The translations under genes and the position numbers were made by a program. A stretch of 64,000 bases of DNA, from contig NZ_JAJFZL010000001.1 of the NCBI RefSeq assembly GCF_020733635.1, forward strand, positions 1,860,001 to 1,924,000, read 5' to 3'. The stretch comes from Nocardia spumae (lineage in GTDB: Bacteria; Actinomycetota; Actinomycetes; Mycobacteriales; Mycobacteriaceae). Under the pieces are notes generated by a model. It made no database searches. It was not told the DNA's origin and saw nothing but the letters and a program-made list of their open reading frames with translations. Shown here in pieces: positions 34,525-58,746 of the stretch. Every line of letters begins with the position of its first letter. The first letter of the stretch is position 1.

Positions 34525-34540
34525 GTTAACGATCATTGAT
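34525..34540. promoter_or_regulatory. Operator site A: GTTAA-CGATCA-TTGAT
   Basis: First copy of the 16-bp dyad GTTAA-N6-TTGAC, here with one change in the right half. It lies 154 bp upstream of the aldehyde dehydrogenase GTG, in an abruptly AT-rich stretch. The right half overlaps a possible -35 (TTGATT). Like the copies at 43597, 48956 and 58731 it heads a transcription unit of the catabolic block. Confidence 0.55.
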
Positions 34541-34693
34541 TACTATCGGTTCAACGTGAGAGTCTGCGGGTGGGTTGGAATCCTGCTGCGGAGCTAGTCG
34601 TCAGGCGGCAAATATAGGGCTTGAAGTGCGAGTATTGCGCATGCCTACATCTATGACGCGTTGCTGGAAGTCCTGATCGAGCGAGGAGAGTTC

Positions 34694-36142
34694 GTGGCAA
34701 AGAGAACGTTCATATACGAGCATCTGTTCATAGGCGGAGTCTGGACGCCGCCGGAAGGGTGCTCGTCGATCGACGTGGTGGACCCGCACTCCGGCGATGT
34801 GGTGGGACGCGTACCGCACGCGACGCGAGCCGACGTGGACAAGGCCGTCGCTGCCGCGCGCCGTGAGTTCGACTCCGGTACGTGGCCGCGGCTGCCGTTG
34901 CGGGAGCGGCTGTCCGTCCTCGATCGCCTCGGCGAACTTCTGAAATCCCGCGTACCCGAATTCGCCGAACTCATCAGCCGGGAGAACGGCTCGCCGATCA
35001 GTTGGAGCGGACCCGCGCAGGCGACGCTACCCGCGGCTGTATACGGCCTGACAGCGCAGGTGGCACGGTCGTTTCCGTTCGAGCAACGGCGACCAGGCAC
35101 ACGGTGCGAGGTCGTGGTGCGCCGAGAGCCGGTGGGTGTGGTCGCCGCGGTCGTGCCGTGGAACGCACCGGCTTTCGTGACCTCTCTGAAACTCGCTCCG
35201 GCTCTCGCTGCCGGTTGCACGGTTGTGCTCAAACCGTCGCCGGAGACGCCGTTGGATGCCAATCTGCTCGCGGAGGTCGCGGTCGAGGCCGGGCTGCCGC
35301 CCGGTGTTCTGAGCGTGCTGCCCGCCGACCGCGAGGTCAGCGAATATCTGGTCTCGCACCCCGGTGTGGACAAGGTCTCGTTCACCGGATCCGTCGTTGC
35401 CGGAAAACGCGTCATGGAAGCCGCCGCGGGCAACCTGACCCGGGTCACACTCGAATTGGGGGGTAAGTCGGCTGCCGTCATCCTCGACGACGCCGATATG
35501 GATGCCGCGATCAGCACGATCACCCGGGCGTCATGGGCATTGAACAACGGCCAGGCATGCGTGGCGCTGACCCGGGTACTCGCGCCGGCTTCACGGTATG
35601 ACGACATCGCCGCCCGATTGACCGATGCCGTAAACGCTTTGACGGTAGGTGATCCCCTGGACCCGGCTACTCAGGTCGGCCCCCTGGTGTCGCGGCGACA
35701 ACAACGACGCAGTCTCGATTACATCGACATAGGCCGGAGCGAGGGGGCGGCCCTACTGGCCGGCGGAGCGGTTCCCGCGGGGCTGGAGCAGGGTTGTTAT
35801 GTAGCGCCGACATTGTTCGGCGATGTCGACAATTCGATGCGGATCGCGCGGGACGAAATCTTCGGACCGATCGTCTGTCTGCTGCGCTACGACGGTGAAG
35901 ACCAGGCCGTGCGGATCGCCAACGACTCCGAATTCGGCTTGTCCGGAGCCGTTTTCGCCGGGGAGGTCGAGCGCGGTATCGACATCGCGCGTCGGATTCG
36001 CACGGGAACGCTGACGGTGAACGGCTTCACCACCGAACTCACGGCGCCGTTCGGCGGCTTCAAGAATTCCGGGATCGGGCGCGAGATGGGCGACGAGGGA
36101 CTGCGCTCCTTCCTCGAAGCGAAGACGATCGCCATCCAGTAA
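34694..36142 (+). CDS. Aldehyde dehydrogenase
   Basis: 482 residues from GTG 34694 with ribosome site gcgaggag; an upstream in-frame ATG at 34661 lacks one. NAD-dependent ALDH family: cofactor motif PWNAPAF and VVLKPSPETP, general-base glutamate in TLELGGK (Glu254), catalytic cysteine in NNGQACVA (Cys289), and EIFGPIV near the end. It oxidises an aldehyde to a carboxylic acid. The next gene is an alcohol dehydrogenase, so the pair would turn a terminal alcohol into an acid ready for CoA activation. First gene after operator site A. Confidence 0.93.
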   Translation: MAKRTFIYEHLFIGGVWTPPEGCSSIDVVDPHSGDVVGRVPHATRADVDKAVAAARREFDSGTWPRLPLRERLSVLDRLGELLKSRVPEFAELISRENGSPISWSGPAQATLPAAVYGLTAQVARSFPFEQRRPGTRCEVVVRREPVGVVAAVVPWNAPAFVTSLKLAPALAAGCTVVLKPSPETPLDANLLAEVAVEAGLPPGVLSVLPADREVSEYLVSHPGVDKVSFTGSVVAGKRVMEAAAGNLTRVTLELGGKSAAVILDDADMDAAISTITRASWALNNGQACVALTRVLAPASRYDDIAARLTDAVNALTVGDPLDPATQVGPLVSRRQQRRSLDYIDIGRSEGAALLAGGAVPAGLEQGCYVAPTLFGDVDNSMRIARDEIFGPIVCLLRYDGEDQAVRIANDSEFGLSGAVFAGEVERGIDIARRIRTGTLTVNGFTTELTAPFGGFKNSGIGREMGDEGLRSFLEAKTIAIQ

Positions 36143-36189
36143 CAGGCCGGCCATACCGGGTTTCGGTTTCGACGAATCTGAAGGATTAT

Positions 36190-37323
36190 GTGATGAAGAC
36201 CAAGGGTGCCCTCATACTCGGGCCCGGCCGCGATTGGGAGATCGCGGAATTCGACCTCGGTGATCCGATCGCCGGTGAAGTGCAGGTTCGCCTCGCGGCC
36301 GCCGGCCTGTGCCATTCCGATGACCATCTGCGTACCGGGGATCAGCCACCGCCGTTCTATCCGGTGCTCGGCGGACACGAAGGAGCAGGCATCGTCACAA
36401 AGGTTGGTGCGAATGTCACCGGGCTGCGTGAGGGCGACCACGTTGTACTCTCGTTCATCGCCGCGTGCGGCCGGTGTCGTGCCTGCGCACGGGGAAGACA
36501 ACACCTGTGCGACCGTGGGGCTTCGATCGGCACCGGCCGATCCATCGCCGACGGCACCTATCGGGCCGCCACCCGCAGCGGTCACCCGATCCATCCGATG
36601 ACGCTGCTCGGTGCGTTCGCTCCCTACGTCACCGTGCACCAGGACTCGGTGATCAAGATCGAAGACGACATCCCACTCGACCGTGCCGTCCTCGTTTCCT
36701 GCGGTGTCTGCACCGGGTGGGGATCCGCAGTCCATGCGGGCGGTACTCAGCCGGGCGATGCCGTGGTGGTTATCGGATGCGGTGGGATCGGCATGAACGC
36801 GATCCAAGGCGCCGCAATGGCGGGCGCGCGATTCGTCTTCGCGATCGACCCGGTCGCGTTCAAACGTGAGCAAGCTCTGAAATTCGGTGCGACACACGTC
36901 TTTTCCTCGCTCGATGAGGCGGCCTCGCATATCCAGGACCTGACCTGGGGTGCGCTGGCCGATGTCGTTGTCCTGGCCGTGGGCGTGCTCGAACCGGAGA
37001 TGATTCAGTCCGCTCTGTCTGTCACGGCAAAGGGTGGCACCGTCGCGGTCACGGCGGTGGGGCCGGCCGGTGTCGATGCCGCGGCGATGAGCCTGATCCA
37101 GCTCACCGCGCTGGAGAAGCGTGTCCAAGGCGTGATGTTCGGTGGCGCGAGCCCCCGCGCGCAGGTGCCCAAACTGCTGAACCTCTATCGCAACGGCGCC
37201 CTGAAGCTCGATGAGCTGGTCACGCGCACCTACCGGCTGGAGGACATCACCGTCGGTTACCGGGACATGCTCGAAGGCCGAAATATCCGGGGCATCATCG
37301 AATTCACCGATTCGGACTACTGA
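36190..37323 (+). CDS. NDMA-type zinc-dependent alcohol dehydrogenase
   Basis: 377 residues (GTG 36190; ATG 36193 has better spacing to the aagga site). Catalytic zinc ligands appear in GLCHSDDH and GGHEGAG, and the structural zinc cysteines in CGRCRACARGRQHLC (C-x2-C-x2-C-x7-C). The Rossmann motif is VIGCGGIGMNAIQGAAMAGA. The overall pattern resembles the NDMA-dependent group (Rxyl_3153/TIGR03989 type) that often keeps its nicotinamide bound and works with mycofactocin. It oxidises an alcohol to the aldehyde used by the preceding ALDH. Confidence 0.9.
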   Translation: MMKTKGALILGPGRDWEIAEFDLGDPIAGEVQVRLAAAGLCHSDDHLRTGDQPPPFYPVLGGHEGAGIVTKVGANVTGLREGDHVVLSFIAACGRCRACARGRQHLCDRGASIGTGRSIADGTYRAATRSGHPIHPMTLLGAFAPYVTVHQDSVIKIEDDIPLDRAVLVSCGVCTGWGSAVHAGGTQPGDAVVVIGCGGIGMNAIQGAAMAGARFVFAIDPVAFKREQALKFGATHVFSSLDEAASHIQDLTWGALADVVVLAVGVLEPEMIQSALSVTAKGGTVAVTAVGPAGVDAAAMSLIQLTALEKRVQGVMFGGASPRAQVPKLLNLYRNGALKLDELVTRTYRLEDITVGYRDMLEGRNIRGIIEFTDSDY

Positions 37324-37398
37324 TGTCCGGCGCCGCGTGCGAGCGAGCGCCCCAGCGATGCGCGCCGGGCGCGTCGCCGATACCGAGAAGGGTTGAAA

Positions 37399-38556
37399 GT
37401 GAAGAATTCCAAGCAAGGTCCACTGTCCGGGATCACCGTGCTCGAACTCGGCGGCATCGGCCCCGGACCGTTCGCGGCAATGGTGCTGGCCGATATGGGT
37501 GCCACGGTCATTCGCGTGGTGCGCGATCGAGGGTGGAGCAGGCACCCCGTGCTGAACCGCGGCCGGATATCGGTCGAGATCGACCTCAAGAATCCGGACG
37601 GGGTCGCCGCGGTCGGTCGTATCGCCGAGCACTGTGACGTGATCATCGAGGGATTCCGTCCCGGAGTGGCGGAACGACTCGGGCTCGGTCCGGACGATCT
37701 TCTCGCGATCAATCCGCGCCTGGTGTACGGGCGAATGACGGGCTGGGGTCAGGACGGGCCGTGGGCGTGGGCACCCGGTCACGACATCAACTATTTATCG
37801 CTCACCGGTGGTCTGCACGCGATCGGCCCGAAGGACGGCGACCCGGTGCCGCCGCTGAACCTGGTGTCCGACTTCGGTGGTGGCGGAATGCTTTTGGCCT
37901 ACGGCGTCGCCTGCGCCTTGATCAGTGCGGGCGTGACCGGTAAGGGGCAGGTGGTGGACGCCGCGATGGTGGACGGCACCTCGGTGTTGCTGGCGATGAC
38001 CCATGGCTTCATGGCCGACGGCAGCTGGTGCGACGAGCGTGAATCGAACATGCTCGACGGTGCCGCACCCTTCTACCGCACGTACCGGTGCGCGGACGGC
38101 AAGCATATGGCCGTCGGATGCGTGGAGCCGCAGTTCTACCGCGAGCTGTTGCGGGTTCTCGATCTCGCCGGCGAACCGTTGTTCGACGCACAGCACGACA
38201 AGGAGCTGTGGTTCGAACAGGGCGAACGCATCGCGACCGTGTTCGCCACGAAGCCCCGTGGTGAGTGGGAGGTGATCTTCGCGGATACGCAAGCCTGTAC
38301 GACGCCGGTACTTTCGTTGCGCGAAGCCGCACAGCATCCACATATGACGGCGCGCGGGACCCTCGCCGTGCACGACGGAATCGTTCAGCCGATGCCCGCT
38401 CCGCGTTTCAGCGAGACCCCGCCCGCGGCTCCGGCCCCCCAGTCCGGGGAACTCGCCGATATTGTCGCGACGTTGCGCGACATCGGATTGGCCGGTGATG
38501 AGGTCGCTTCGTTCTTCGCCGACGGTGTGCTCTGCGCACCCCCGGCAGCTCGATAG
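37399..38556 (+). CDS. CaiB/BaiF CoA-transferase, alpha-methylacyl-CoA racemase type
   Basis: 385 residues from GTG 37399 (ribosome site gagaagg; TTG 37393 also possible). The N-terminus (LSGITVLELGGIGPGPFAAM) and the motifs APGHDINYLSLTGGLHAIG and LVSDFGGGGMLLAYG match alpha-methylacyl-CoA racemase (Mcr/AMACR), including the histidine and aspartate thought to be catalytic. It would interconvert 2R- and 2S-methyl acyl-CoAs, a step needed to degrade branched isoprenoid or sterol side chains. Last gene of the site A operon, followed by a strong terminator. Confidence 0.88.
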   Translation: MKNSKQGPLSGITVLELGGIGPGPFAAMVLADMGATVIRVVRDRGWSRHPVLNRGRISVEIDLKNPDGVAAVGRIAEHCDVIIEGFRPGVAERLGLGPDDLLAINPRLVYGRMTGWGQDGPWAWAPGHDINYLSLTGGLHAIGPKDGDPVPPLNLVSDFGGGGMLLAYGVACALISAGVTGKGQVVDAAMVDGTSVLLAMTHGFMADGSWCDERESNMLDGAAPFYRTYRCADGKHMAVGCVEPQFYRELLRVLDLAGEPLFDAQHDKELWFEQGERIATVFATKPRGEWEVIFADTQACTTPVLSLREAAQHPHMTARGTLAVHDGIVQPMPAPRFSETPPAAPAPQSGELADIVATLRDIGLAGDEVASFFADGVLCAPPAAR

Positions 38557-38568
38557 ATTGTGACGAAG

Positions 38569-38601
38569 AAGTCCGCTCCGGCCATCGGCCGGAGCGGACT
38601 T
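38569..38601. terminator. Bidirectional intrinsic terminator
   Basis: A perfect 15-bp GC-rich stem with a 3-nt loop (38569-38583 pairs with 38587-38601, loop atc) is followed by TTCTT on the plus strand and by a similar T-rich stretch on the minus strand. It sits between the ends of the convergent racemase and lipase genes and would stop transcription from both sides. Confidence 0.85.
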
Positions 38602-38629
38602 TCTTGTGGAAGGGGGGCGACGACGTTGG

Positions 38630-39565: not shown

Positions 39566-39627
39566 AGTCGTACTCCTCGTGGTGGGGTTCGGTCCGGCCC
39601 GGTATCGGCCGCCCGATTCATGGCAGG

Positions 39628-40996: not shown

Positions 40997-41012
40997 GTTA
41001 GTAGTTGTTGAC
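40997..41012. promoter_or_regulatory. Operator site E (weak): GTTAG-TAGTTG-TTGAC
   Basis: A degenerate copy of the GTTAA-N6-TTGAC dyad lies 20 bp upstream of the PucR-like gene at 41032, in the 348-bp gap 40684-41031. The right half is perfect and the left has one change. The gap holds nothing else I can support. If real it would put this regulator under the same control as the catabolic operons. Confidence 0.4.
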
Positions 41013-41031
41013 CTATGTAGCGAAGGTGGTG

Positions 41032-42312
41032 ATGCCGGTGCGGCACGGCGATATCGCTGCCACACCCGCTCGGCAACTCGTCGGCCACGAGGGGAGCGCC
41101 GCTGCTCCGGCTGTCGCCCCGACCGGAGCGGGCGCAGCGGAATGCACGACGCCCGCGGTACTTCGCGCTGCGGCTCGGGCGCTGCTGGGAAATACCGCTG
41201 AGCTTGCTGTGGACGCCTGTGCCCACCTGCGATCGGAGCCCGCGCGCTACGGGTTGTCGGTCATCGCGCTGACCGATCTACTGGCGGCAGTGCACATCGG
41301 CGTCGAGGCGTGTGCGCGATCGCTCGCCGAGCCCGAGCGCCTGGCCGACTCCGGCGCGTTCGCCTGGAATGTCGGTGCCGGGTGCGCTGAAAGTTGTGTT
41401 CCCGCAGAAGGATTGATACGCGCATATCGCGCCGTGGCCGCGGTGTTCTGGGATCGGCTCGTGGACGCCCTGCCCACCGACGATCTGCCTCGAGGTCGGG
41501 AGATGGCGCGTTGCGCCAACGACTTCTGGCGCCACGTCGATCGAGACATCGGTTTGCTGGTCGAGTCGTATCGACGGACAGCTACGGTGCACCGGGCTCG
41601 CCACGTGCAGCCACTACTGCGTCTGCTGTTGCGCGGCAATGTCGAGGGGCTCGATGTGTCCGCTGCCGCGATCGGGCTGGACGCGCCGATCCGGGGGCGC
41701 TACGCCGTAGCGAGTCTGCGGATGGTTCCGGTCTCGGCGTTGGTGGCACGGGAACAGATCGACGATCTGACTGTCTTTCGGACCGTGAATCATGACGGTG
41801 GAGTGACTGTCGTCGCCTTACTGGGCGAACGGACACTTGCGCACTTCGGTGCGGTCATCGCGCGCGCTCATCCAGGTGTCAGCGGCGGTATCGGCCCGGT
41901 CGTCGGTGGTCTGTCGGAGCTCGGGCGGGCGCGTGAACTGGCCGACCTCGCGCTCGAGTCGGTCGCCGATCGAACCGAGGTAGTCGTGCTGGCGGACCGG
42001 ATGTGCCTCGCGTTGTTGCTGGCCCGCCGCGATCTCGCCACCGAACATGTGGCATGCGTCTTCGGTCGAGTGGTCGAGTTGGACGGCGGGGACCGCAAGT
42101 CGCTGCTCGACACATTCGGCACGTGGGTATCCTGCGGTGGTTCAGCGGTGCGGGCGGCGGAAGTGCTGTTCTGCCACCCGAATACGGTCTCGAATCGGTT
42201 GCGCCGGTTGGAGAGATTGACCGGCAAGCATCTGGACCGGCCGCGAGATCTTGCTGAACTCGTTCTCGCCCTGGACGCCTATCTGTTGCTCGCCAGGGAT
42301 GATCACCGATAG
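41032..42312 (+). CDS. PucR/CdaR-like transcriptional regulator
   Basis: About 426 residues from ATG 41032 (gaagg site 7 bp before; GTG 41029 also possible). N-terminal RsbRD-like helical domain, a middle GGDEF-like domain, and a C-terminal HTH_30 helix-turn-helix (VLFCHPNTVSNRLRRLERLT). Same architecture as the mce-linked regulator at 18299 but clearly divergent. Its 3' end overlaps the tandem-TetR gene by 10 bp tail-to-tail. Likely an activator for the surrounding catabolic genes; the target is not shown by the sequence. Confidence 0.8.
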   Translation: MPVRHGDIAATPARQLVGHEGSAAAPAVAPTGAGAAECTTPAVLRAAARALLGNTAELAVDACAHLRSEPARYGLSVIALTDLLAAVHIGVEACARSLAEPERLADSGAFAWNVGAGCAESCVPAEGLIRAYRAVAAVFWDRLVDALPTDDLPRGREMARCANDFWRHVDRDIGLLVESYRRTATVHRARHVQPLLRLLLRGNVEGLDVSAAAIGLDAPIRGRYAVASLRMVPVSALVAREQIDDLTVFRTVNHDGGVTVVALLGERTLAHFGAVIARAHPGVSGGIGPVVGGLSELGRARELADLALESVADRTEVVVLADRMCLALLLARRDLATEHVACVFGRVVELDGGDRKSLLDTFGTWVSCGGSAVRAAEVLFCHPNTVSNRLRRLERLTGKHLDRPRDLAELVLALDAYLLLARDDHR

Positions 42313-43514
42313 TGCAGGACGGCGTGGCCCAATTGGTACAGGTCGTCATCGAGGTGCGGGCGCCGACCGAGGCTGCGGGATCGGACCGATTCCGATACCA
42401 GTCCGACGAGCGCGACGACCAGGACGTTCGATTCCGGTGCGGAAAGGTCAGGGCGGCAACTCGAAAGACAGTGCGTCCACTCCTCGGTGAACAACTTCAT
42501 CGTCTTCCGGCGCTGGAGCAGCGCCTCGGGGCCGAGATAGTGTGCCTCGGTCGTGCGGACCGCGATGAGGTCGTCGATTGCCACGGCCAGGGATGTGTAT
42601 GAGCGCAGTAGTTTGTCCAACGCCTCCTCGGCCGAGGAAGCGTCGGCCAACGCGTCGCCCATGGCGCTGACGATGCGATCCCCGGAACGCAGGATCGCGG
42701 TTTCCAGAATGTCTTCCTTGTTCTTGAAATGGCGGTACGGTGCGGCCGCGGTGATTCCCACGGCCTCGGCGATCTCTGCCATGGAGACTCCGCGGAACCC
42801 GCGCTCGCGAAACAGCGAGATCGCGGTTTGCAGAATCAGTTCCCGGCGTGAAGCGCGCTCCCAGGTTCCACGCGAGGTCGGGTTGTCGGTGCTGGGCGGG
42901 GTCGATCGCATCCGGGCCGACAACATGCCGGTGACCATCTTGCATACGAGCTCGATGAGTCTGGGCCGTGTTACCGGGACCTTCGCGCGGTCGGCGCCGA
43001 TCAGCAGGCCGCTGCCGGCGCGCACGTAGAGCCCGGCGTCCTGCGGGTCGATGTGGGGGTATGCGGCGACGATGACCGGCACCCACGCATCGCGCAACGC
43101 GACGAAGCGTTCCTCGATCTGCGCGAGCCGATCCGGCCCCAGGTGCCACAGGTGCCGGATGCAGACGGTCAGTTCCGCGGTTCTGTCGAGTGCGTATTCG
43201 ACAACGGCGTGAGTGAGCCGATCCTGCTCCGGCGGGCCGGATTCGGTCATTGCCTGGTCGGTGGTGGTTCGGAGGCCGTCGAGAAAGTCGAGGCCGATCT
43301 GCGCGAGGATCGCTTCTTTTCCGGAGAAATGCCGGTAGAGCGCGGGGCCGCTGATGCCGAGGTCCGCGCCCAGGTCGTCGATGCTGACGCCGGTGTAGCC
43401 GCGTTCCTGGAACAGCCTCGCCGAGCGCAGGAGGATTTCCTCCCGTCGCTGTGCGCTGGTCTTGCGTACGCGGCCGGGGCGCGCCGCGGCTGTGCCGGTA
43501 CGGGGCGGGCTCAT
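42303..43514 (-). CDS. Tandem double-TetR repressor, Mce3R-like
   Basis: 403 residues with two complete TetR units: HTH one SIDDLGADLGISGPALYRHF (about residues 45-64) and HTH two SMAEIAEAVGITAAAPYRHF (about 243-262), each followed by a helical ligand domain. This rare double architecture and length match Mce3R of M. tuberculosis, reported to repress lipid genes including fadE17, fadE18 and echA13. Here the gene is divergent from an enoyl-CoA hydratase operon, with the dyad GTTAA-N6-TTGAC between them. It is the best candidate to bind all copies of that dyad. A single chain with two DNA-binding domains could bind one dyad alone. Confidence 0.88.
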   Translation of the reverse strand: MSPPRTGTAAARPGRVRKTSAQRREEILLRSARLFQERGYTGVSIDDLGADLGISGPALYRHFSGKEAILAQIGLDFLDGLRTTTDQAMTESGPPEQDRLTHAVVEYALDRTAELTVCIRHLWHLGPDRLAQIEERFVALRDAWVPVIVAAYPHIDPQDAGLYVRAGSGLLIGADRAKVPVTRPRLIELVCKMVTGMLSARMRSTPPSTDNPTSRGTWERASRRELILQTAISLFRERGFRGVSMAEIAEAVGITAAAPYRHFKNKEDILETAILRSGDRIVSAMGDALADASSAEEALDKLLRSYTSLAVAIDDLIAVRTTEAHYLGPEALLQRRKTMKLFTEEWTHCLSSCRPDLSAPESNVLVVALVGLVSESVRSRSLGRRPHLDDDLYQLGHAVLHYR

Positions 43515-43596: not shown

Positions 43597-43637
43597 GTTA
43601 ACGACTATTGACTTCTCGCCGGGGGTGGTCTTAATGT
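43597..43637 (+). promoter_or_regulatory. Operator site B within a promoter for the echA operon
   Basis: The dyad GTTAA-CGACTA-TTGAC (43597-43612) overlaps a -35 box TTGACT (43608-43613). Eighteen bases later comes TAATGT (43632-43637), a TANNNT -10. The expected start of transcription falls at or within a base or two of the ATG at 43645, and no ribosome site precedes that ATG, so the mRNA is probably leaderless. A repressor on the dyad would block the -35 directly. Confidence 0.6.
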
Positions 43638-43644
43638 CCTCGCT

Positions 43645-44427: not shown

Positions 44428-44457
44428 GTCGGTAACGGATACGAAAAGGACGAAAAA

Positions 44458-45366: not shown

Positions 45367-45379
45367 GAAGGGGCGCGAC

Positions 45380-46234: not shown

Positions 46235-46256
46235 TGTCGGGCAGGGGAGCGAACTG

Positions 46257-48955: not shown

Positions 48956-48971
48956 GTTAACGATCATTTAC
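48956..48971. promoter_or_regulatory. Operator site C: GTTAA-CGATCA-TTTAC
   Basis: A copy of the 16-bp dyad with an intact left half, the same N6 as site A, and one change in the right half. It lies 108 bp upstream of the SDR gene at 49079, between it and the lysR gene. It may control both directions, since the gap is only 170 bp. Confidence 0.55.
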
Positions 48972-50008: not shown

Positions 50009-50439
50009 GCGCCGAGCAGCAGGTCCCGACGTTCGAGATGTCGCTCGAGCGGGGCAAGATCGGGGAATTCGCCAAGGCGACCATGTCCGAAAACCCTGCC
50101 TACTGGGGTAAGAACCCGGTGATCCCGCCGACGTTCCTCACCACCGCCGGATTCTTCTGGCAGACCGCGGAATCCAAGGCTGCCGGTGCGCATGGACTGG
50201 ATCCGAAGCGGACGTTGCACGCCGAGCAGGAGTACGTCTTCCACGGCGAGCCGCCTCGGGCTGGTACCGAACTGACCGCTGCCACGCGGATCGCCGACCG
50301 CTTCACCAAGGAAGGCCGCCGCGGCGGCGCCCTGACCTTCGTGAAGATCGTCACCGAGTTCCGTGACGAGACCGGACGGCTCGTGGCCGAGCAGCGCACG
50401 ACGGCCGTGGAAACCGCACGCGCCCCGAAGGAGTCGTGA
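50005..50439 (+). CDS. MaoC/FAS1-type dehydratase N-half (hydratase subunit 1)
   Basis: 144 residues from ATG 50005. The hot-dog fold is recognised by NPVIPPTFLTTAGFF and the central GEPPRAGTELTAATRIADRF helix-strand region, as in the FAS1-type dehydratase domain of HadA/HadC and the MaoC-like subunits of steroid-degrading hydratases. It lacks the catalytic Asp-His, which the next gene supplies. The two are overlapped and should form a heterodimeric enoyl-CoA hydratase. Confidence 0.8.
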   Translation: MSAEQQVPTFEMSLERGKIGEFAKATMSENPAYWGKNPVIPPTFLTTAGFFWQTAESKAAGAHGLDPKRTLHAEQEYVFHGEPPRAGTELTAATRIADRFTKEGRRGGALTFVKIVTEFRDETGRLVAEQRTTAVETARAPKES

Positions 50440-50861
50440 TGACCACGACCGAAACGAGTTCCCTCGCAGTCGGTGACACCGTGACCGAGCAGTCCTTCGG
50501 CCCGCTGACGATCACCGACATCGTCCGCTACGCCGGTGCGTCGGGCGACATGAATCCGCTGCATCACGACGAAGCGGCGGCCGAGGCAGCCGGTTTCGCC
50601 GGCATCTTCTCCATCGGGATGTTCCAGGCCGGCCTGCTCGCCACCTTCGCGGTGAACTGGCTCGGCGCCGAGAACGTGCGTCGCTTCACCACCCGTTTCA
50701 AGGAGCAGGTGTGGCCAGGCGACACGCTGACCTGCACCGGCGAGATCGTCGATGTCCGCACTGGCGATGGCGGCACCACCGTCGAGGTCGAGCTCACCTG
50801 CACCCGCCAGACCGGCGGCGTGGCCATCGAGGGCTCGGCCGAATTCCGGCTGCCCGCCTGA
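50439..50861 (+). CDS. MaoC-type hydratase catalytic subunit
   Basis: 140 residues from ATG 50439 with ribosome site aaggag; GTG 50436 is too near the site. The hydratase-2 motif is ITDIVRYAGASGDMNPLHHD, with the catalytic Asp and His in place, then GIFSIGMFQAGLL. It pairs with the FAS1-type partner before it, like HadB with HadA/HadC or the small subunit of steroid side-chain hydratases. It hydrates an alpha,beta-unsaturated acyl-CoA. Confidence 0.87.
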   Translation: MTTTETSSLAVGDTVTEQSFGPLTITDIVRYAGASGDMNPLHHDEAAAEAAGFAGIFSIGMFQAGLLATFAVNWLGAENVRRFTTRFKEQVWPGDTLTCTGEIVDVRTGDGGTTVEVELTCTRQTGGVAIEGSAEFRLPA

Positions 50862-50892
50862 CACCGATCACGATATTCCCCAAGGAGTGGTA

Positions 50893-52338
50893 ATGACGAC
50901 ACATTCACCGATCGGGATCACCTCCTACGGTGTGCACCTGCCGATCTGGCGGGTGCGGCGCGGCGACATAGGCTCCGTGCTCGGCTCGGGCGGCGGGCGA
51001 GGTACCCGGTCGACCGCCGGATTCGACGAGGATTCCACCTCGATGGGCGTCGAGGCCGGCCGCGCCGCGCTGCGTGACGCACAGCCGCCGCGCGGCCTCG
51101 TATTCGCTACCGCCACACCGGCGTACGCGGACAAAACCAATGCCGCGATCCTGCACGCCGCGCTCGATCTCGACCGTTCGGTGCCGGCCTACGACTTCGT
51201 GGGAGCGTCCCGCTCGGCGATCGGCGCGCTGTGTGCCGCGGCGGACGCGGCCGCGGCGGGCCGACCGACGATGGCGGTCCTGTCCGACATCCGGACCGGC
51301 CTGCCGTCCTCCGCGGAGGAGCGTGACGGCGGTGATGGCGCCGCGGCAGTGGTTTTCGGCGACGGTGACCAAGTGCTCGCCGAGCTGGCCGGCCGGGGGT
51401 CCGCCTCGGCGGAATTCCTGGATCGGTGGCGAGTGCCCGGTGATTCGTCGAGCCGGGTATGGGAGGAGCGGTTCGCCGAGGGGCAGTACATCACGCTCGC
51501 GCAGCAAGCCGTGGATACCGCGTTGAAGGACGCCGGGATCACGATGGCCGACGTCGACCGGGTCGCGGTGGCCGGTTTGCATCGACGGGCCGCCAAAGCG
51601 ATCGCCAAGACCTACGCTCGGGACGCGGCACTGGTCGACGATCTGTCCGACACGATCGGTGCCACCGGGACAGCGCAGCCCGGCATTCTGCTCGCCGGTG
51701 CGCTGGACGAGGCCGCTCCCGGCGAGACGATCTTGCTCGTCCAGATCGGCGACGGCGCCGACGCCCTGGTTTTCCGCGCTACCGCGGCGCTTCCTGCCGC
51801 ACGCGAAAAGCGCGCGGCACGCACAGTTTCCGAGCAGGTCGCAGACGGCCGCGCTATCGACTATCAGCGTTTCCTCACCTGGCGCGGTTTTCTGCGCCGG
51901 GAGGCGCCGCGCCGCCCGGACCCGGACCGCCCGGCCGCGCCGCCGTCGGCACGCAACGCCGAATGGAAGTTCGGTCTCGCGGCCGGCCGCTGCACCGAGT
52001 GCGGAACCAGACATATGCCAGCGATCAGGGTATGCCGTCAGTGTCACAGCGTGGATCGGATGGAACGCGAACGCGTTGCGGAGGAGCGGGCCACGGTGGC
52101 GACGTTCCAGGCAGATCTGCTCGCCTACACCCTCAGCCCGCCGCTCATCGGCGCCGCGGTGGACTTCGCGGGCGGGGGTCGCCTGATGTGCGAGATCACC
52201 GACGCCGACCCTGCCACCCTGCGCATCGGTGACGAGGTCGAGATGACCTTCCGCCGGCTCTACACCACCGCCGATGGGGTGCACAACTACTTCTGGAAAG
52301 CGCGGCCGGTCCGCGGATCCGTCAGCAAGGAGGCCTGA
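50893..52338 (+). CDS. HMG-CoA-synthase-like (KAS III fold) protein with DUF35 zinc ribbon
   Basis: 481 residues from ATG 50893 (aggag site). Residues 1-330 have the KAS III/HMG-CoA synthase fold (GITSYGVHLPIWRVRR, STSMGVEAGRAALRDA). The place of the catalytic cysteine reads DFVGASRSAIGALCAA, so no cysteine is in the usual position. The C-terminal 120 residues are a DUF35 unit with a zinc ribbon (CTECG...CRQCH) and an OB fold. DUF35 partners assist thiolase-like aldolases in steroid side-chain loss. The next gene is such a thiolase, so this is likely its partner subunit. Confidence 0.75.
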   Translation: MTTHSPIGITSYGVHLPIWRVRRGDIGSVLGSGGGRGTRSTAGFDEDSTSMGVEAGRAALRDAQPPRGLVFATATPAYADKTNAAILHAALDLDRSVPAYDFVGASRSAIGALCAAADAAAAGRPTMAVLSDIRTGLPSSAEERDGGDGAAAVVFGDGDQVLAELAGRGSASAEFLDRWRVPGDSSSRVWEERFAEGQYITLAQQAVDTALKDAGITMADVDRVAVAGLHRRAAKAIAKTYARDAALVDDLSDTIGATGTAQPGILLAGALDEAAPGETILLVQIGDGADALVFRATAALPAAREKRAARTVSEQVADGRAIDYQRFLTWRGFLRREAPRRPDPDRPAAPPSARNAEWKFGLAAGRCTECGTRHMPAIRVCRQCHSVDRMERERVAEERATVATFQADLLAYTLSPPLIGAAVDFAGGGRLMCEITDADPATLRIGDEVEMTFRRLYTTADGVHNYFWKARPVRGSVSKEA

Positions 52339-52343
52339 ACACC

Positions 52344-53552
52344 ATGGCTACACACGGAATTCGCGACCAGGTCGCGATTGTCGGAATGGGATGCACCCCT
52401 TTCGCCGAGCACTGGAACAAGAGCGCCGAAGACCTGCTGGTCGACGCGAACGCCGAGGCGCTGGCCTCGGCCGGCATCGCCCAGGCCGATGTGGACGCCT
52501 ACTGGCTCGGCACGATGGGCTCCGGTTTCTCCGGCCAATTGCTCTCACGCACACTGAAACTCGATTACAAGCCGGTCACCCGGGTGGAGAACTTCTGCGC
52601 CACGGGCTCGGAAGCATTCCGCAACGCCTGCTACGCGGTGGCCTCCGGCGCCATCGATGTGGCGATGGCGATCGGCGTGGAGAAGCTGAAGGACTCCGGC
52701 TACTCGGGCCTGACCTCGGCGGCCCCGCCACACGACGGCACCGCGGCCGCGATCACGGCACCGGCCGCTTTCGGCCTGCTGGCGCCGGCCTACGCCAACG
52801 CGACCGGGATCGACGACGACACCCTGAAAGAGGTCATTACCCGCATCGCCTGGAAGAACCACTACAACGGCGCGCGCAATCCGCGCGCGCAGTTCCGCAC
52901 GGAGCTGTCGATGGATGCGATCCGCAACAGCCCCAAAGTGTCCGGCATGCTCGGAGTGCTGGACTGCTCCGGGGTATCCGACGGCTCAGCCGCAGCGATC
53001 ATCGTGCGCGCCGAGGACGCCTACGAGTACACCGACAAGCCGATCTTCGTGAAGGCGCTGTCCATGGTCGCCGGCCCCGGTGACGGGCCGATGGACCCCA
53101 CCTTCGATTACACCTCGATCCGTGAGGTGATCAAGTGCGCCGAAGCCGCCTACGCCGAGGCCGGTATCACCGATCCGCGCAACGAGTTCGCGCTGGCCGA
53201 GGTGCACGACTGCTTCACTCCGACCGAGCTGGTCCTGATGGAGGACCTGGGATTCAGTGAGCGCGGAAAAGCGTGGCGCGATGTGCTCGACGGAAAGTTC
53301 GACCTGACCGGCGAACTGCCGGTGAACCCGGACGGTGGCCTGAAGAGCTTCGGTCACCCGATCGGCGCGTCCGGGCTTCGGATGCTGTTCGAATGCTGGC
53401 TGCAGTTGCGCCAGGAGGCCCCGGCGGAACGCCAGATCGCCTCGATCGTCAGCGGTGAACGCACGCTCGGCCTGACCCACAACCTCGGTGGTCGTCCGGG
53501 CGATTGCGTGAGCTTCATCTCTGTCGTCGGCAATGAACCAGTCGCTGGTTAG
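52344..53552 (+). CDS. Thiolase-fold enzyme, lipid-transfer (SCP-x/Ltp) type
   Basis: 402 residues. Thiolase motifs are VENFCATGSEAFRNA (Cys85), AEVHDCFTPTE and the C-terminal GGLKSFGHPIGASG with its histidine. The final cysteine motif of true thiolases is altered (THNLGGRPGDCVSF). This is the SCP-x/Ltp subgroup, which includes thiolases and the retro-aldolases Ltp2-Ltp4 that need a DUF35 partner. It would cleave a 3-keto or beta-hydroxy acyl-CoA. Five bases separate it from the DUF35 gene. Confidence 0.87.
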   Translation: MATHGIRDQVAIVGMGCTPFAEHWNKSAEDLLVDANAEALASAGIAQADVDAYWLGTMGSGFSGQLLSRTLKLDYKPVTRVENFCATGSEAFRNACYAVASGAIDVAMAIGVEKLKDSGYSGLTSAAPPHDGTAAAITAPAAFGLLAPAYANATGIDDDTLKEVITRIAWKNHYNGARNPRAQFRTELSMDAIRNSPKVSGMLGVLDCSGVSDGSAAAIIVRAEDAYEYTDKPIFVKALSMVAGPGDGPMDPTFDYTSIREVIKCAEAAYAEAGITDPRNEFALAEVHDCFTPTELVLMEDLGFSERGKAWRDVLDGKFDLTGELPVNPDGGLKSFGHPIGASGLRMLFECWLQLRQEAPAERQIASIVSGERTLGLTHNLGGRPGDCVSFISVVGNEPVAG

Positions 53553-53564
53553 GACGGGAACACC

Positions 53565-54713
53565 ATGGAACGCAGCATTTTCGACCAGGACCACGACGAC
53601 TTTCGCGCTACCGTGCGCAAGTTCCTCGAGACCGAAGTCGCGCCCAATATGACCGAATGGGAGGCGGCCGGAGTTCTTCCGAAGGACATTTTCGTGCGCT
53701 TCGGTGATATGGGACTGGCGGGCCTGAACATTCCCGAGGAGTACGGCGGCGGTGGCGTGAGCGACTTCCGGTTCAATGCCGTCGTCGTCGAGGAAACACA
53801 ACTCACCTACTCGAGCCTCGGTGGGCTCGGTGTGCACACCAATATCGTCACGCCCTATTTCCTGCACTGCGGGAACGAGGAGCAGAAACGGCGGTGGCTG
53901 CCCGATGTCGCGGCAGGCAGGAAGATGTGTTCGATCGCGATGACCGAACCGGGCGCGGGCTCGGATCTGTCCGGCATCAAGACCACCGCGGTGCGTGACG
54001 GTGACGACTGGATCATCAACGGCGCCAAGACGTTCATCACCGGCGGCATCAACGCCGATCTGGTGATCGTCGCCTGCCGTACCTCCAAGGACGAATCCGA
54101 TCGCCGCGGCGGCCTCAGCCTGATCGTCGTCGAGGACGGTATGCCCGGATTCCGCAAGGGCCGCAAACTCGAGAAGCTCGGCACCCGCTCCATCGACACC
54201 GCCGAGCTGTCGTTCGAGGACGTGCGGGTACCCAACGCCAATCTCCTCGGCGAGGAGGGAAAGGGATTCAGCTACCTGACTTTCAACCTGGTGCAGGAGC
54301 GGCTCACGCAGTCCGTCTCCGCGGTGGCGACCGCCCAGGCGGCATTGAACGCGGCGCTTCCCTATGTGAAGGACCGCAAGGTCTTCGGACAGAGTGTGGC
54401 GTCGTTCCAGAACACCAAGTTCGTGCTCGCGGACTGCGCGACCGAGGTCGAGGCCGGCCAAGCGCTCATCGACAAGGCGATCGTGACCTACAACGAAGGC
54501 AAGCTCACCGTCGCGGACGTGGCGAAGGTCAAGCTGTTCGTCACCGAAATGGCCGGGCGCGTGGTGGACAAGTGCCTGCAGCTGCACGGTGGGTACGGCT
54601 ACATGCTGGAGTATCCGATTGCGCGCCTGTACGCCGACATCCGGCTCTCCCGGATCGCCGCCGGCTCCAGTGAGATCATGAAAACCGTTATCGCGAAGAG
54701 CCTTTCGCTGTGA
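53565..54713 (+). CDS. Acyl-CoA dehydrogenase (FadE-type)
   Basis: 382 residues of the full-length acyl-CoA dehydrogenase family: CSIAMTEPGAGSDLSGIKT flavin segment, the INGAKTFITGG substrate strand, and the C-terminal LQLHGGYGYMLEYPI with the catalytic glutamate in LEYP. FAD-dependent, introduces the alpha,beta double bond. Unlike the pair at 56371/57522, it looks complete and would form a homotetramer. Its stop overlaps the next start (GTGA). Confidence 0.93.
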   Translation: MERSIFDQDHDDFRATVRKFLETEVAPNMTEWEAAGVLPKDIFVRFGDMGLAGLNIPEEYGGGGVSDFRFNAVVVEETQLTYSSLGGLGVHTNIVTPYFLHCGNEEQKRRWLPDVAAGRKMCSIAMTEPGAGSDLSGIKTTAVRDGDDWIINGAKTFITGGINADLVIVACRTSKDESDRRGGLSLIVVEDGMPGFRKGRKLEKLGTRSIDTAELSFEDVRVPNANLLGEEGKGFSYLTFNLVQERLTQSVSAVATAQAALNAALPYVKDRKVFGQSVASFQNTKFVLADCATEVEAGQALIDKAIVTYNEGKLTVADVAKVKLFVTEMAGRVVDKCLQLHGGYGYMLEYPIARLYADIRLSRIAAGSSEIMKTVIAKSLSL

Positions 54714-56374
54714 ACCAGCCGCTGGAAGGGGAGGAACGCGCTCGGCCGAGTCTGGTGGACCTGCTGCGCGCGGTCGCTTCGGCGGTAGGTGATCGCGAGG
54801 CCGTGGTGCACGGTGATGTGCGGCGGACGTATGCGCAGACCGTTGCGCGCATCGATGCGCTGGCGCGGATGCTGGTCTCCCGACGCGGTTCCGGTGTGAT
54901 CGGCAGGGGTGATCGCGCCGGGATGGATTCGGGCCAGGGAAACGTCGCGGTGTACATGTACAACGGTCCGGAGTACATCGAGGCCACTTTCGCCGCCCTC
55001 GGGGCCCGGTACGCTCCGTTCAACGTCAACTACCGTTATACGCCGACGGAATTGACGCAGATCTTCGACGATGCGCGTCCAGCTGTGATCGTGTACCACG
55101 CATGTTTCGCACCGACATTGGCCCAGGTACTGCCCGGATTGGCAGTCGAGCCGCTGCTGATTCAGGTTGCCGATGATTCCGGGCGGGCATTGCTGCCAGG
55201 TGCGGTGGAATTCGAGGCCGCGTTGCTCGAAGCACCCGAGGTCTCGCTGCCGACGTCGTCACCGGATGATCTGCTGTTGGTCTACACCGGCGGAACCACC
55301 GGGTTGCCCAAAGGCGTGATGTGGGGGCAGCACGACATGTGGCTGGCCACCAGCGGTGGAGCCGAGTTCCCCGCAGACGTCACCGCCGCCGCGGTCGGAG
55401 AATCGGCCCGGCAATCCGAAGGTCCGCGTCTACTCGGTGCCGCACCCTTCATGCACGGTGCCGGACTGTGGTACATGGTGCGCGTCCTGGTGCGCGGGGG
55501 ACTGGTCGCCATACCCGCGACGGCGAGCAGGTTCGATGCTGCCGAGGTATGTGAACTGATCGAGCGCGAGCGTCTGGACACCATTGTCCTCGTCGCGGAG
55601 GCGTTCGCGAATCCTCTGGTCCGTCAGGTGATCCGGCGAAGTTACCGGCTCGATTGCGTCCGGCTCATCGGGCTAGGCGGCGGAATGACCAGCGCGCAGA
55701 CCAAAGACGCACTGATGACGGCGATGCCCCATGCCGCACTTTTCGACTCCGTGGGGTGCACGGAGACGGGAGGAATCCTGCGCGAGGAGGTACTGCCGGG
55801 GGAAGCCCCGGCGGCAGGTGTCTTTCGACCCTTGCCACGCGCCTGCGTGATCAGCGAGGACAAGCGTTCCTTTCTGGCACCGGGATCATCGCAACACGGC
55901 TGGCTGGCGGCCCGTACTCCGCTGCCGCGCGGCTATCTTCACGATCCGGCGAAGTCCGCGACGGCACTGATCGACGTGGCGGGCGATGTTGTGATGCTGA
56001 CCGGAGATCGAGTGGAGTACCTCGGCGATAGCCGCGTGAAGTTACTCGGGCGCGACTCGATGACCATCAACACCGGCGGCGAGAAGGTCTTCGCAGAGGA
56101 GGTCGAGCGCGCCGCGCGGGTGCACCCGAGCGTGCAGGATGTTCTGGTTCTCGGCCGTCCGCACGAGCGGTGGGGCCAGGTGATCGTCGCGGTCGTGCAA
56201 CTGGACGAGCCGATCGGCGACGACGACCTGTTGGCCGCGATGGCCGGTCGAATCGCGCGATACAAGTTGCCGAAGGCATTCATCCGAGTCGAGCAGATCC
56301 GTCGGTCCGCCGCGGGCAAAGCGGACTATCAGTGGGCCGAATCGGTGGTACGACAGGAAGGGGTACGCGGATGA
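54710..56374 (+). CDS. Acyl-CoA ligase (FadD-type, FadD19-like)
   Basis: 554 residues from a GTG overlapping the dehydrogenase stop. ATP loop LLVYTGGTTGLPKGVMWGQH with the extended WGQ, DSVGCTETGG acceptor region, TGDRVEYLGD and the terminal lysine in RSAAGKADY. The KGVMWGQHD pattern is shared with steroid side-chain ligases such as FadD19 and FadD17. It activates a bulky carboxylic acid. The downstream dehydrogenase overlaps by 4 bp. Confidence 0.9.
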   Translation: MNQPLEGEERARPSLVDLLRAVASAVGDREAVVHGDVRRTYAQTVARIDALARMLVSRRGSGVIGRGDRAGMDSGQGNVAVYMYNGPEYIEATFAALGARYAPFNVNYRYTPTELTQIFDDARPAVIVYHACFAPTLAQVLPGLAVEPLLIQVADDSGRALLPGAVEFEAALLEAPEVSLPTSSPDDLLLVYTGGTTGLPKGVMWGQHDMWLATSGGAEFPADVTAAAVGESARQSEGPRLLGAAPFMHGAGLWYMVRVLVRGGLVAIPATASRFDAAEVCELIERERLDTIVLVAEAFANPLVRQVIRRSYRLDCVRLIGLGGGMTSAQTKDALMTAMPHAALFDSVGCTETGGILREEVLPGEAPAAGVFRPLPRACVISEDKRSFLAPGSSQHGWLAARTPLPRGYLHDPAKSATALIDVAGDVVMLTGDRVEYLGDSRVKLLGRDSMTINTGGEKVFAEEVERAARVHPSVQDVLVLGRPHERWGQVIVAVVQLDEPIGDDDLLAAMAGRIARYKLPKAFIRVEQIRRSAAGKADYQWAESVVRQEGVRG

Positions 56375-57525
56375 GTGCGGTAATGAGTCGCGGCGACGTG
56401 CTCGACTTGCGGCCCGCGGAATTGCCGGCCGAGGTGGCCGGATTGCGTACGCAGGTGCGCGATTTCCTGGCCGAGCAGTCCGCCGCCGGGAGATTCGTGT
56501 CGATGCCCGACAGCTGGATCATCGGCGCCGACCTCGACTTCACGCGTGAGCTGGGCGCACGTGGCTGGCTCGGTATGACGGTCCCGCAGCGCTACGGCGG
56601 CGGCGGACGGTCATCGCTCGAGCGGTTCGTTGTCATCGAGGAGCTACTCGCGGCGGGCGCCCCGGTGGCCGCACACTGGGTCGCGGACCGGCAGGTCGCT
56701 CCGAGCCTGCTGAGCTTCGGCTCCGAACCACAAAAGCAGCGCTACCTGCCCGCAATCGCTTCGGGTGAGTGTATTTTCGCGATCGGCCTGAGCGAGCCCG
56801 ACACCGGATCCGATCTGGCGTCGGTGCGTACCAGAGCGGTTCCCACCGATGGAGGCTGGCTGGTTACCGGCACGAAAATCTGGACCAGCGGAGCGCATCT
56901 CGCGCATGCCATTCTGGCGCTGGTGCGTACCGGTGATGGCGGCAAGAGCCGGCACGAGGGCCTGACCCAGATGCTGATCCCGGTGCCCGACGAACGGATC
57001 ACGATCCGCCCGATCATCTCGCTGACCGGCGGCCACCACTTCAACGAGGTGGTGTTCGACGAGGTGTTCGTCCCCGACGACATGGTCTTGGGGCAGGTGG
57101 GTGCGGGCTGGAAGCAGGTCGGCAGCGAGCTCGCGTTCGAACGCAGCGGCCCGGAGCGAATTCTGAGCACCATACCCCTGCTACGTCTGCTCGCCGAGCG
57201 TGAGTTGCTCGATGCCGCGACACTCGGACGGCTGGTGTCGCGGCTCTGGTCGCTGCGCGAAATGTCCATCGCGATCGCCGTCTCACTCAGCGCGGGCCGC
57301 GCGCCGGACACAGCAGCCGCCCTGGTCAAGGACCTGGGCACTCTATTCGAGCGGGAGGTTATCGACGCGGCCCGCGCCACCGGCGTCGAACCCGATCCGA
57401 GCTCCGACGAGCCGCTGTCGCGCATGCTCGCCTACGCGATCGCCAGTTCACCGACCTCGACGCTGCGCGGCGGAACCAACGAGATTCTGCGCGGAATCGT
57501 CGCGCGGGCACTAGGAGTGCGATGA
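56371..57525 (+). CDS. Acyl-CoA dehydrogenase, heteromeric pair subunit 1 (FadE17/28-like)
   Basis: 384 residues from ATG 56371. It has the flavin and substrate segments FAIGLSEPDTGSDLASVRT and TGTKIWTSGAH and the C-terminal LRGGTNEILRGIVARALG. The following gene encodes a shorter dehydrogenase that starts within its stop. Adjacent, overlapping pairs of this kind form alpha2beta2 dehydrogenases in actinobacterial steroid degradation (FadE28-FadE29, FadE17-FadE18), with two FADs per tetramer. The operon context and Mce3R-like regulator favour the FadE17/18 comparison. Confidence 0.88.
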   Translation: MSAVMSRGDVLDLRPAELPAEVAGLRTQVRDFLAEQSAAGRFVSMPDSWIIGADLDFTRELGARGWLGMTVPQRYGGGGRSSLERFVVIEELLAAGAPVAAHWVADRQVAPSLLSFGSEPQKQRYLPAIASGECIFAIGLSEPDTGSDLASVRTRAVPTDGGWLVTGTKIWTSGAHLAHAILALVRTGDGGKSRHEGLTQMLIPVPDERITIRPIISLTGGHHFNEVVFDEVFVPDDMVLGQVGAGWKQVGSELAFERSGPERILSTIPLLRLLAERELLDAATLGRLVSRLWSLREMSIAIAVSLSAGRAPDTAAALVKDLGTLFEREVIDAARATGVEPDPSSDEPLSRMLAYAIASSPTSTLRGGTNEILRGIVARALGVR

Positions 57526-58550
57526 GGACCGACGAGCAACTGCTCGCCGACACCGCGGACAAGACCTTCAGGCAATGCGCCGAAGGACCGCAGGCCTGGC
57601 GACTGATCGAAGAACTGGGGCTCACGAGGATCGGGATCGCCGAGGAACTCGGCGGCAGTGGCGGCGACGCCGAACAGGCCCGAATCGTGTTGCGCAGCGC
57701 GGCATATCACGCCGTCGCGCTTCCACTCGCGGAGACACTGTGGCTCGCCGCGCCCTTGCTCGCCGACGCGAGGCTGCCGATCCCGGACGGTCCCCTGACG
57801 GTGGCGAGCGCCGCCATCGGCCAATTCCGGGTCCGTCCGAACCTGAGCGGGTCGAGTTGGCAACTGGACGGCGTCTTGCGTCGAGTTCCCTGGGCGCGCA
57901 GCGCTTCTCGTATCGTCGTCGCTGCCGACGACCGCGTCTGTCTGGTGGATCCTTCCGACTGCCGAATCACGCATGGCGCGAATCTGGCCGGTGAACCCCG
58001 GGATGAGGTGTACCTCGACGGCGTCACCGTGGACGCCGACGACCTGGGAAGTTTGCCCTACCGGGTGGACCTGCGCGAACGTGGCGCGCTGGCGCGAAGC
58101 GTGCAGATCGGTGGCGCGGCGCAGCGGGCTCTCGACCACAGTCTGGAGTACGCCACACAGCGTGTGCAGTTCGGACGGCCGATCGCGGCCTTCCAGGCTG
58201 TCCAGCAGTATCTCGCTCAGATGGCCGGTGAGGTAGCCGCTGCGAATCTGAGCGTCGCCAGTGCGGTGCACAAGACCGCGGGTCGGCCGAACGGCGCACA
58301 TCTGGTCGCCACGGCGCGGGTGAACGCCTGTCGCGCGGCAGGAATTGTGGCTGAGCTGGCGCATCAGGTGCACGGCGCGATCGGCACGACTCGCGAACAC
58401 GACCTGCGGCTGGCAACGACCCGATTGTGGTCGTGGCGCGAAGAATTCGGCGGCGAAGCCGAGTGGGCGCGGGTGTTGGGTGACAAGGCGAGCGCCGACG
58501 GAGATCCATGGCATCTGGTCACTCGATATGAGGCTCCGTACACCGCCTGA
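57522..58550 (+). CDS. Acyl-CoA dehydrogenase, heteromeric pair subunit 2 (FadE18/29-like)
   Basis: 342 residues, shorter than a normal dehydrogenase and divergent. The middle flavin-binding signature is lost (LVDPSDCRITHGANLAGEPR region). The C-terminal helical part is clear: YATQRVQFGRPIAAFQAVQQ and HQVHGAIGTTREHDL. It needs its partner to complete the active site. Last gene of the operon. No terminator was seen in the 407-bp gap that follows, which holds only operator site D and a long leader. Confidence 0.85.
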   Translation: MRTDEQLLADTADKTFRQCAEGPQAWRLIEELGLTRIGIAEELGGSGGDAEQARIVLRSAAYHAVALPLAETLWLAAPLLADARLPIPDGPLTVASAAIGQFRVRPNLSGSSWQLDGVLRRVPWARSASRIVVAADDRVCLVDPSDCRITHGANLAGEPRDEVYLDGVTVDADDLGSLPYRVDLRERGALARSVQIGGAAQRALDHSLEYATQRVQFGRPIAAFQAVQQYLAQMAGEVAAANLSVASAVHKTAGRPNGAHLVATARVNACRAAGIVAELAHQVHGAIGTTREHDLRLATTRLWSWREEFGGEAEWARVLGDKASADGDPWHLVTRYEAPYTA

Positions 58551-58730
58551 TCGATGAGCGGACGATCGCAATGCCGGTGATCGTCGAATCGTGTGTAGCA
58601 CATGCTGTTTCGATGATGTGGGTGGCTCGCATCAGCTGTGCGCTCCCTGCCGGCAGAGCCTGTGGAGTTAGTGGGTGTGTACCTGGTGGTGTCAAATTTA
58701 TGTAAGAGGGCACGAACCTTATAGATTTAA

Positions 58731-58746
58731 GTTAACTACTATTGAC
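58731..58746. promoter_or_regulatory. Operator site D: GTTAA-CTACTA-TTGAC
   Basis: A perfect GTTAA-N6-TTGAC copy in an AT-rich pocket (58690-58750), 212 bp upstream of the ATG at 58958. TTGACT (58742-58747) could be the -35 of its promoter, as at site B, but I see no clear -10 at the right distance. The long leader after it (58750-58957) shows no gene. The preceding 58551-58730 holds nothing I can support. Confidence 0.6.

Follow-up and report, generated by a model that had tools for sequence, protein, structure and literature searches.

Which regulator governs a block of degradation genes in Nocardia spumae, and through which element on the DNA does it act? The question is raised by a stretch of 64,000 nucleotides, referred to here as the window (assembly GCF_020733635.1, contig NZ_JAJFZL010000001.1, positions 1,860,001 to 1,924,000, forward strand), in which a 16-bp dyad recurs upstream of catabolic operons and a double-TetR protein is encoded at 42303-43514. 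We consider it likely, with a probability of roughly 0.8, that this dyad, GTTAAC-N4-ATTGAC, is the operator of that protein, a single chain with two unlike heads that is predicted to repress four operons (17 genes) and its own gene.

An original prediction, made from the window alone, described the sites as copies of GTTAA-N6-TTGAC, and its five coordinates are all correct (Table 1). As literal copies they hold in part: the sites at 43597 and 58731 match the looser form GTYAA-N6-TTRAC (the loose pattern) exactly, whereas those at 34525 (TTGAT) and 48956 (TTTAC) carry one mismatch each. The AT-rich pockets around them are real, with an AT content of 0.45-0.58 over 116 bp against 34% for the window. 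Allowing one mismatch, the loose pattern occurs six times in the window, compared with a shuffle mean of 1.69, and none of 100 shuffles reaches six. The sharp consensus GTTAAC-N4-ATTGAC is found, with at most one mismatch, seven times in the 7.07-Mb genome; four of these are the strong window sites, and four of seven falling within 24,222 bp was not seen in any of 400,000 random placements. The one-mismatch matches to the loose pattern in the window also include 40997 and 62628, both at chance level and dropped as regulon members. The former had been proposed as a weaker site bringing a PucR-like regulator into the regulon; it is set at chance level because it has three mismatches to the sharp consensus and because tblastn (E <= 1e-10) found nothing corresponding to the PucR-like gene, a PorA-like gene or a lipase in the Rhodococcus loci retrieved.

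Close orthologues of the protein are scarce. Among 7996 candidates scored from a database of 5.8 billion proteins, 15 other full-length proteins were at least 45% identical to it. The window's own protein aside, 150 genomes of the genus gave nothing better than E 2.4e-46 or 34% identity, 397 genomes of the order gave no orthologue, and 401 genomes of the family gave four, 52-57% identical, in Aldersonia kunmingensis (G551), Aldersonia sp. NBC_00410 (G567), Rhodococcus jostii NBRC 16295 (G718) and a second Rhodococcus (G732). No further orthologue appeared in 28 genomes of the genus of R. jostii, and a plasmid collection returned 23 records, those listed being about 30% identical.

At all four orthologue loci a dyad separates the repressor gene from the gene that diverges from it, which is EchA in the Rhodococcus genomes and a MaoC or SDR gene in those of Aldersonia; three of these dyads match the sharp consensus exactly, and the one in G567 (L024) has two mismatches. 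The double-TetR protein thus accompanies the site in all five loci examined, and all seven exact sharp matches of the five genomes lie at the repressor locus. R. jostii and G732 carry the window's gene set in a different order: a site precedes the acyl-CoA ligase gene FadD_c in both, R. jostii has a site upstream of an MFS-transporter gene followed by alcohol dehydrogenase (ADH) and aldehyde dehydrogenase (ALDH) genes, and G732 has two sites upstream of ALDH-ADH. The counterpart of the third operator in the LysR/SDR2 gap of G732, ATTAACGATCATTTAC, is a two-mismatch site that agrees with 48956 at 15 of 16 positions, including the unusual TTTAC end. Control of four operons by one repressor, as originally proposed, is predicted from these sites and their conservation, probably for three of the promoters and likely for the fourth; its suggested extension to the PucR-like gene is unsupported.

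The repressor candidate has 403 residues, and its AlphaFold model (predicted local distance difference test, pLDDT, 92.7; predicted template-modelling score, pTM, 0.89) shows the helix pattern of two helix-turn-helix (HTH) units, here called M1 and M2. Its best whole-chain fold match is the DNA-bound structure of Mce3R (9b7y), so that the earlier assignment to the Mce3R type stands as far as the fold is concerned; it does not extend to a 25-bp non-palindromic operator or to mce3/yrbE neighbours. The gene lies beside EchA and the PucR-like gene, and no Mce or YrbE family was found among the scanned block genes (34.5-60.5 kb), the rest of the genome not having been searched for mce operons. Rv1963c (Mce3R) matches the protein with a phmmer E of 3.5e-25, one of the two matched stretches being out of register. 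The NF050111 model of the BkaR/SACE_7040 family scores 196.4 bits, below the NCBIfam cut-off of 250 bits, and a 403-residue chain with two HTH units departs from the single-domain build of about 200 residues of that family, whose recognition helix, GPA(L/I/V)YRHF, is present in M1 and absent from M2.

The operator had been thought to be undescribed, but its class is not new. The BkaR dimer recognises GTTA(N)T(N4)A(N)TAAC (PMC3920632), and the sites of PccD, BkaR and AccR are alike (PMC11596240). Like BkaR/Rv2506 (Fad35R), AccR, PccD and the SACE_7040-type repressors, the window protein is associated with a 16-bp dyad with GTTA halves, keeps the family helix in M1, shares the divergent gene arrangement with (here predicted) autoregulation, and belongs to acyl-CoA metabolism. 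Unlike the single-domain BkaR, which acts as a dimer on a near-symmetric core, it is one chain and has one unlike half-site, so that its predicted operator amounts to a lopsided variant of the GTTA...TAAC palindrome. The AccR operator is reportedly GTTAA-N6-TTAAC. KstR and KstR2 are likewise TetR repressors of acyl-CoA or steroid degradation genes, and KstR2, together with BkaR, is among the fold matches; both differ from the window protein in being single-domain, and their operator motifs differ from the window dyad. For Mce3R of Mycobacterium tuberculosis, the first solved double TetR according to its authors, these authors describe 25-bp non-palindromic sites distinct from the Fad35R operator, in contrast to the imperfect 16-bp dyads of Fad35R/BkaR type found in the window.

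How the dyad varies between single and double TetRs was compared over 206 loci, two of which (L057, L202) were unclassified and dropped before counting. Double TetRs were examined at 93 of 119 places, the loci of named-record relatives are the best 80 of 369, and, among 37 single-TetR matches in the window's genus, 30 had loci (the window genome's own included) and 29 were counted. A symmetric dyad (GTTAR/GTTAR) stands upstream of 85 of 104 single-TetR relatives (71/75 named-record loci and 14/29 BkaR orthologues of the genus) versus none of 100 double-TetR genes, which come mostly from one genus and few clades and are not independent events. Single TetRs are not always symmetric: only one-mismatch dyads were found at 3/75 named-record loci and at 15/29 genus BkaR orthologues, the latter deviating to GTTAT or GATAA, and one of the 75 named-record loci had no dyad.

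Within the clade of the window protein (clade A), three of four cases deviate to GTCAA in one half, the fourth being too weak. The left end of its 13 sites is always GTTA, and the right end is TGAC, TGAT or TTAC, never TAAC, so the BkaR core does not fit window-type sites. When all GTTAAC hexamers were listed in 153 kb of the five loci, 12 of the 15 lay at operators, and none of the 15 was flanked by another half of GTTAAC type. Clade B (58 genes of the window's genus), which includes a paralogue of the window protein in the same genome (C1:6269128-6270186, about 30% identity), has an M1 helix of the same sequence, SGPALYRHF, a changed M2 and an invariant GTTAAC half, placed 4 bp from an AAT-core half in 58/58 promoters. 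Unlike at the window sites, its second half is of GAAT type (RYGAAT in 99/106 dyads), and two dyads lie 19 bp apart in 48/58 promoters. In 25 clade B promoters this GTTAAC half is also part, towards its opposite flank, of GTTAACTTA(G/T)GTTGAC; 6269030, one of the seven sharp matches of the genome, is among them, and it may therefore not be an operator itself. In the promoter of the paralogue (L023, G000:C1:6269001-6269045) the GTTAAC dyads likewise have a second half of GAAT type.

The recognition helices vary in parallel. Single TetRs have (S/T)GPA(L/I/V)YRHF with rare variants. M1 keeps GPA in clades A and B, while M2 reads TA(A/G)(A/T)(P/S)YRHF in close clade A members and NASSVYRYF in clade B; all 16 clade A rows have a GPA core in M1 and a different one in M2. 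In a third group, clade C (M1 helix SSAALYRH; L020, L124, L186 and others), a GTTAA dyad was found upstream of 0/25 genes, and a search for shared 8-mers gave no clear operator; TGTCGACA recurs upstream of 12 of these 25 genes.

It had been noted that the site at 43597 overlaps a -35 box, and this overlap turned out to be more general. A TANNNT hexamer follows the right-half hexamer by 16-18 bp in 6/13 clade A sites, whereas 48 control offsets gave 0.08 on average and never more than 1, and these six belong to the eight sites ending in TTGAC, which makes the TTGAC half the likely -35 box there. For operon 2, this would place the transcription start at about 43644, giving a nearly leaderless message from the ATG at 43645.

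The overlap also supplies the main rival to the idea of two heads, namely that the sites do belong to this repressor but are lopsided solely because TTGAC is retained as a -35 box, the protein making no distinction between half-sites. We regard this as rather unlikely. The G at position 14 is present in 12/13 sites and kept in six of the seven that have no fitting -10, a count that is partly circular because the sites were collected with the consensus, and the neutral listing of GTTAAC hexamers yields the same halves. At 34525 the operator lies inside a different -35/-10 pair, but its half is TTGAT all the same. Clade B is lopsided in every promoter although a GAAT-type half is no -35 box, and 0/25 of its GTTAACTTA(G/T)GTTGAC sites have a TANNNT 14-20 bp downstream. 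Moreover, the M2 recognition helix departs from the GPA type in both clades.

Under the reading with two unlike heads, the two parts of the chain are predicted to pair like a TetR 'dimer' within one molecule; M1, with the ancestral BkaR/AccR-type recognition helix, would read GTTAAC and the changed M2 would read RTCAAT. Repression, also of its own gene, would occur by covering the promoter, and where the M2 half doubles as the -35 hexamer its bases would be contested between the repressor and RNA polymerase. To judge by the family, the protein may be released by a CoA thioester from the pathway. A more general proposal remains tentative, at a little under even odds: the tandem TetR would be a single-chain heterodimer in which M1 kept the GTTAAC code, while the M2 helix moved to a new half (RTCAAT here, RYGAAT in the second clade) that merged with the -35 box across the regulon.

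Several observations weigh against this account. The scan with GTYAA-N6-TTRAC called for at the outset shows no enrichment genome-wide (6 distinct exact sites versus 10 for the control, the reversed pattern), and the loose pattern was dropped as genome-wide evidence in favour of the sharper consensus. This too is not enriched at up to two mismatches (58 sites versus 81 for the control in the whole genome), so the evidence lies in the clustering of the sites. In the four orthologue genomes 8/29 matches with at most one mismatch lie at the locus and 21 elsewhere, the control giving 11 in all. The R. jostii LysR/SDR2 gap has no site, its best match having five mismatches. Twelve double TetRs combine an M1 of GPA type with a different M2; eleven of them lack a dyad even at two mismatches, and the twelfth has a GCTAA half only. 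L027, a double TetR whose M1 helix lacks GPA, has no dyad either. The gene tree resolves neither the origin of the fusion nor whether clades A and B share one. Finally, the BkaR orthologue of the same genome (C1:1062142-1062684) and the paralogous double TetR might cross-bind the window sites.

That one of these two proteins of the same lineage, instead of the 42303-43514 protein, is the true reader of the sites is improbable. BkaR-type repressors bind GTTA...TAAC dyads, and the paralogue's own promoter has GTTAAC dyads, including the exact loose-pattern match at 6269030. However, the one-mismatch dyads of genus BkaR orthologues do not deviate to the window's GTCAA half, the dyad of the paralogue's clade, written in the same direction, is GTTAAC-N4-ATTC-N2 and differs at position 14, and the window-type site goes with the window-type repressor in five genomes. 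Some 1 kb away from the BkaR orthologue there is another double TetR (505-aa frame; L114, G000:C1:1060060-1062684), which may reflect a local duplication. The LysR-type or the PucR-like regulator of the window as reader of the dyad was rejected as very improbable: LysR does adjoin SDR2 in both Rhodococcus loci, one of the gaps having a two-mismatch site, but the dyad is of BkaR/TetR type, the R. jostii gap is site-less, and the Aldersonia loci carry the site with no LysR or PucR match. A chance cluster of AT-rich promoter sequence, compatible with the missing genome-wide excess of both patterns, can practically be discarded in view of the random placements and the conservation of the sites in four further genomes.

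If the 42303-43514 protein is indeed the repressor, a 17-gene degradation block that Rhodococcus shares can probably be assigned its regulator, along with three to four promoters that are conserved; no description of the control of this block was found in open-licence papers, in searches none of which targeted the R. jostii locus under its name. Single and double regulators become comparable on one dyad class, which gives a simple rule open to testing (GTTAAC goes with the ancestral helix, an altered half-site with an altered helix) and bears on why two TetR units would be fused. Under the more general proposal, the new half would be freed from palindromic symmetry, one hexamer would serve both sigma factor and repressor across a regulon, and the palindromic operators of BkaR and the asymmetric ones of Mce3R type would be joined in one evolutionary path.

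Table 1. Predicted regulatory elements and genes of the block (window coordinates)
Feature	Position	Strand	Remarks
Candidate operator 1	34525..34540	+	GTTAACGATCATTGAT; upstream of ALDH-ADH-CoA-transferase; 1 mismatch to GTTAAC-N4-ATTGAC; right end TTGAT
Weak site, probably chance	40997..41012	+	GTTAGTAGTTGTTGAC; before PucR-like gene; 1 mismatch to loose pattern, 3 to sharp consensus
Candidate operator 2	43597..43612	+	GTTAACGACTATTGAC; between divergent repressor gene and EchA; exact match to both patterns
Candidate operator 3	48956..48971	+	GTTAACGATCATTTAC; between LysR and SDR2; 1 mismatch; right end TTTAC
Candidate operator 4	58731..58746	+	GTTAACTACTATTGAC; upstream of FadD-like ligase; exact match to both patterns
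Predicted promoter, operon 1	34517..34546	+	TTGATT-N18-TACTAT; operator 1 within spacer
Predicted promoter, operon 2	43608..43637	+	-35 TTGACT (43608), N18, -10 TAATGT (43632)
Double-TetR predicted repressor	42303..43514	-	403 aa; two TetR_N stretches; M1 helix SGPALYRHF, M2 helix TAAAPYRHF
Operon 1	34661..38556	+	three genes; Pfam/NCBIfam
Aldehyde dehydrogenase (ALDH)	34661-36142	+	operon 1
NDMA-dependent alcohol dehydrogenase (ADH)	36190-37323	+	operon 1
Class III CoA-transferase	37393-38556	+	operon 1
PucR-like protein	41005-42312		preceded by weak site 40997
Operon 2	43645..48094	+	four genes
EchA	43645-44427	+	operon 2
SDR	44458-45366	+	operon 2
MFE-2-type MaoC hydratase	45380-46234	+	operon 2
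Acyl-CoA ligase	46514-48094	+	operon 2
LysR-type regulator	48025..48909	-	divergent from operon 3; kept in G718 and G732
Operon 3	49079..58550	+	nine genes, SDR2 first
Two hotdog hydratase subunits	50005-50439, 50439-50861	+	operon 3
HMG-CoA-synthase-like protein	50893-52338	+	operon 3; ChsH2-type OB and zinc-ribbon domains
SCP2-type thiolase, acyl-CoA dehydrogenase, acyl-CoA ligase	within 49079..58550	+	operon 3
Acyl-CoA dehydrogenase pair	56371-57525, 57522-58550	+	operon 3
Operon 4: acyl-CoA ligase (FadD_c)	58811..60520	+	Pfam/NCBIfam

The count of 17 genes in four operons (3+4+9+1) was confirmed, all of them on the plus strand behind the four strong sites. The dyad does not head every unit as had been claimed, since the minus-strand lipase/PorA-like unit has no convincing site upstream and its membership in the regulon finds no support. 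The block is predicted to degrade a lipid-like compound. The three best solved relatives of the dehydrogenase at 56371-57525 include Tcur3483 and 4x28 chain A; for that at 57522-58550 the matches to Tcur3481 and 4x28 chain D are weaker and rank below other acyl-CoA dehydrogenases. Because we take these relatives to be steroid side-chain heterotetramers, a steroid- or isoprenoid-like substrate may be envisaged.

Exact loose-pattern matches elsewhere in the genome, apart from 6269030, lie at 896993, 897020 and 4791208, the first two also being sharp matches with at most one mismatch. These three sites were left out of the regulon analysis; four chosen open reading frames (ORFs) flanking them gave no Pfam family above the cut-off and may not be real genes. 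At G000:C1:896993-897035 (L117:6994-7036) two dyads of GTCAAC type stand in tandem with a spacing of 27 bp, shortly before a 141-aa ORF that has no Pfam match; the pair looks like the operator of another regulator. A dyad pair with the same spacing occurs in Aldersonia G567 (C5:208136/208163), and single GTCAAC...ATTGAC copies are found in G551, G718 and G732.

Other features of the window deserve mention. Downstream of FadD_c, the ORF at 60475-61236 matches Thiolase_N in its C-terminal part alone and is maybe a broken thiolase gene; three neighbouring ORFs gave no Pfam match on scanning. From 62640 to the window's end at 64000, and on into L119:4640-14002, runs a type I fatty acid synthase ORF of 3120 aa, opposite an equally long open frame that matched no Pfam family. 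Outside the block, a second PucR-type regulator (HTH_30) is encoded at 17891-19585, and the protein at 24794-27085 combines a ThiF domain and a nitroreductase-like domain.

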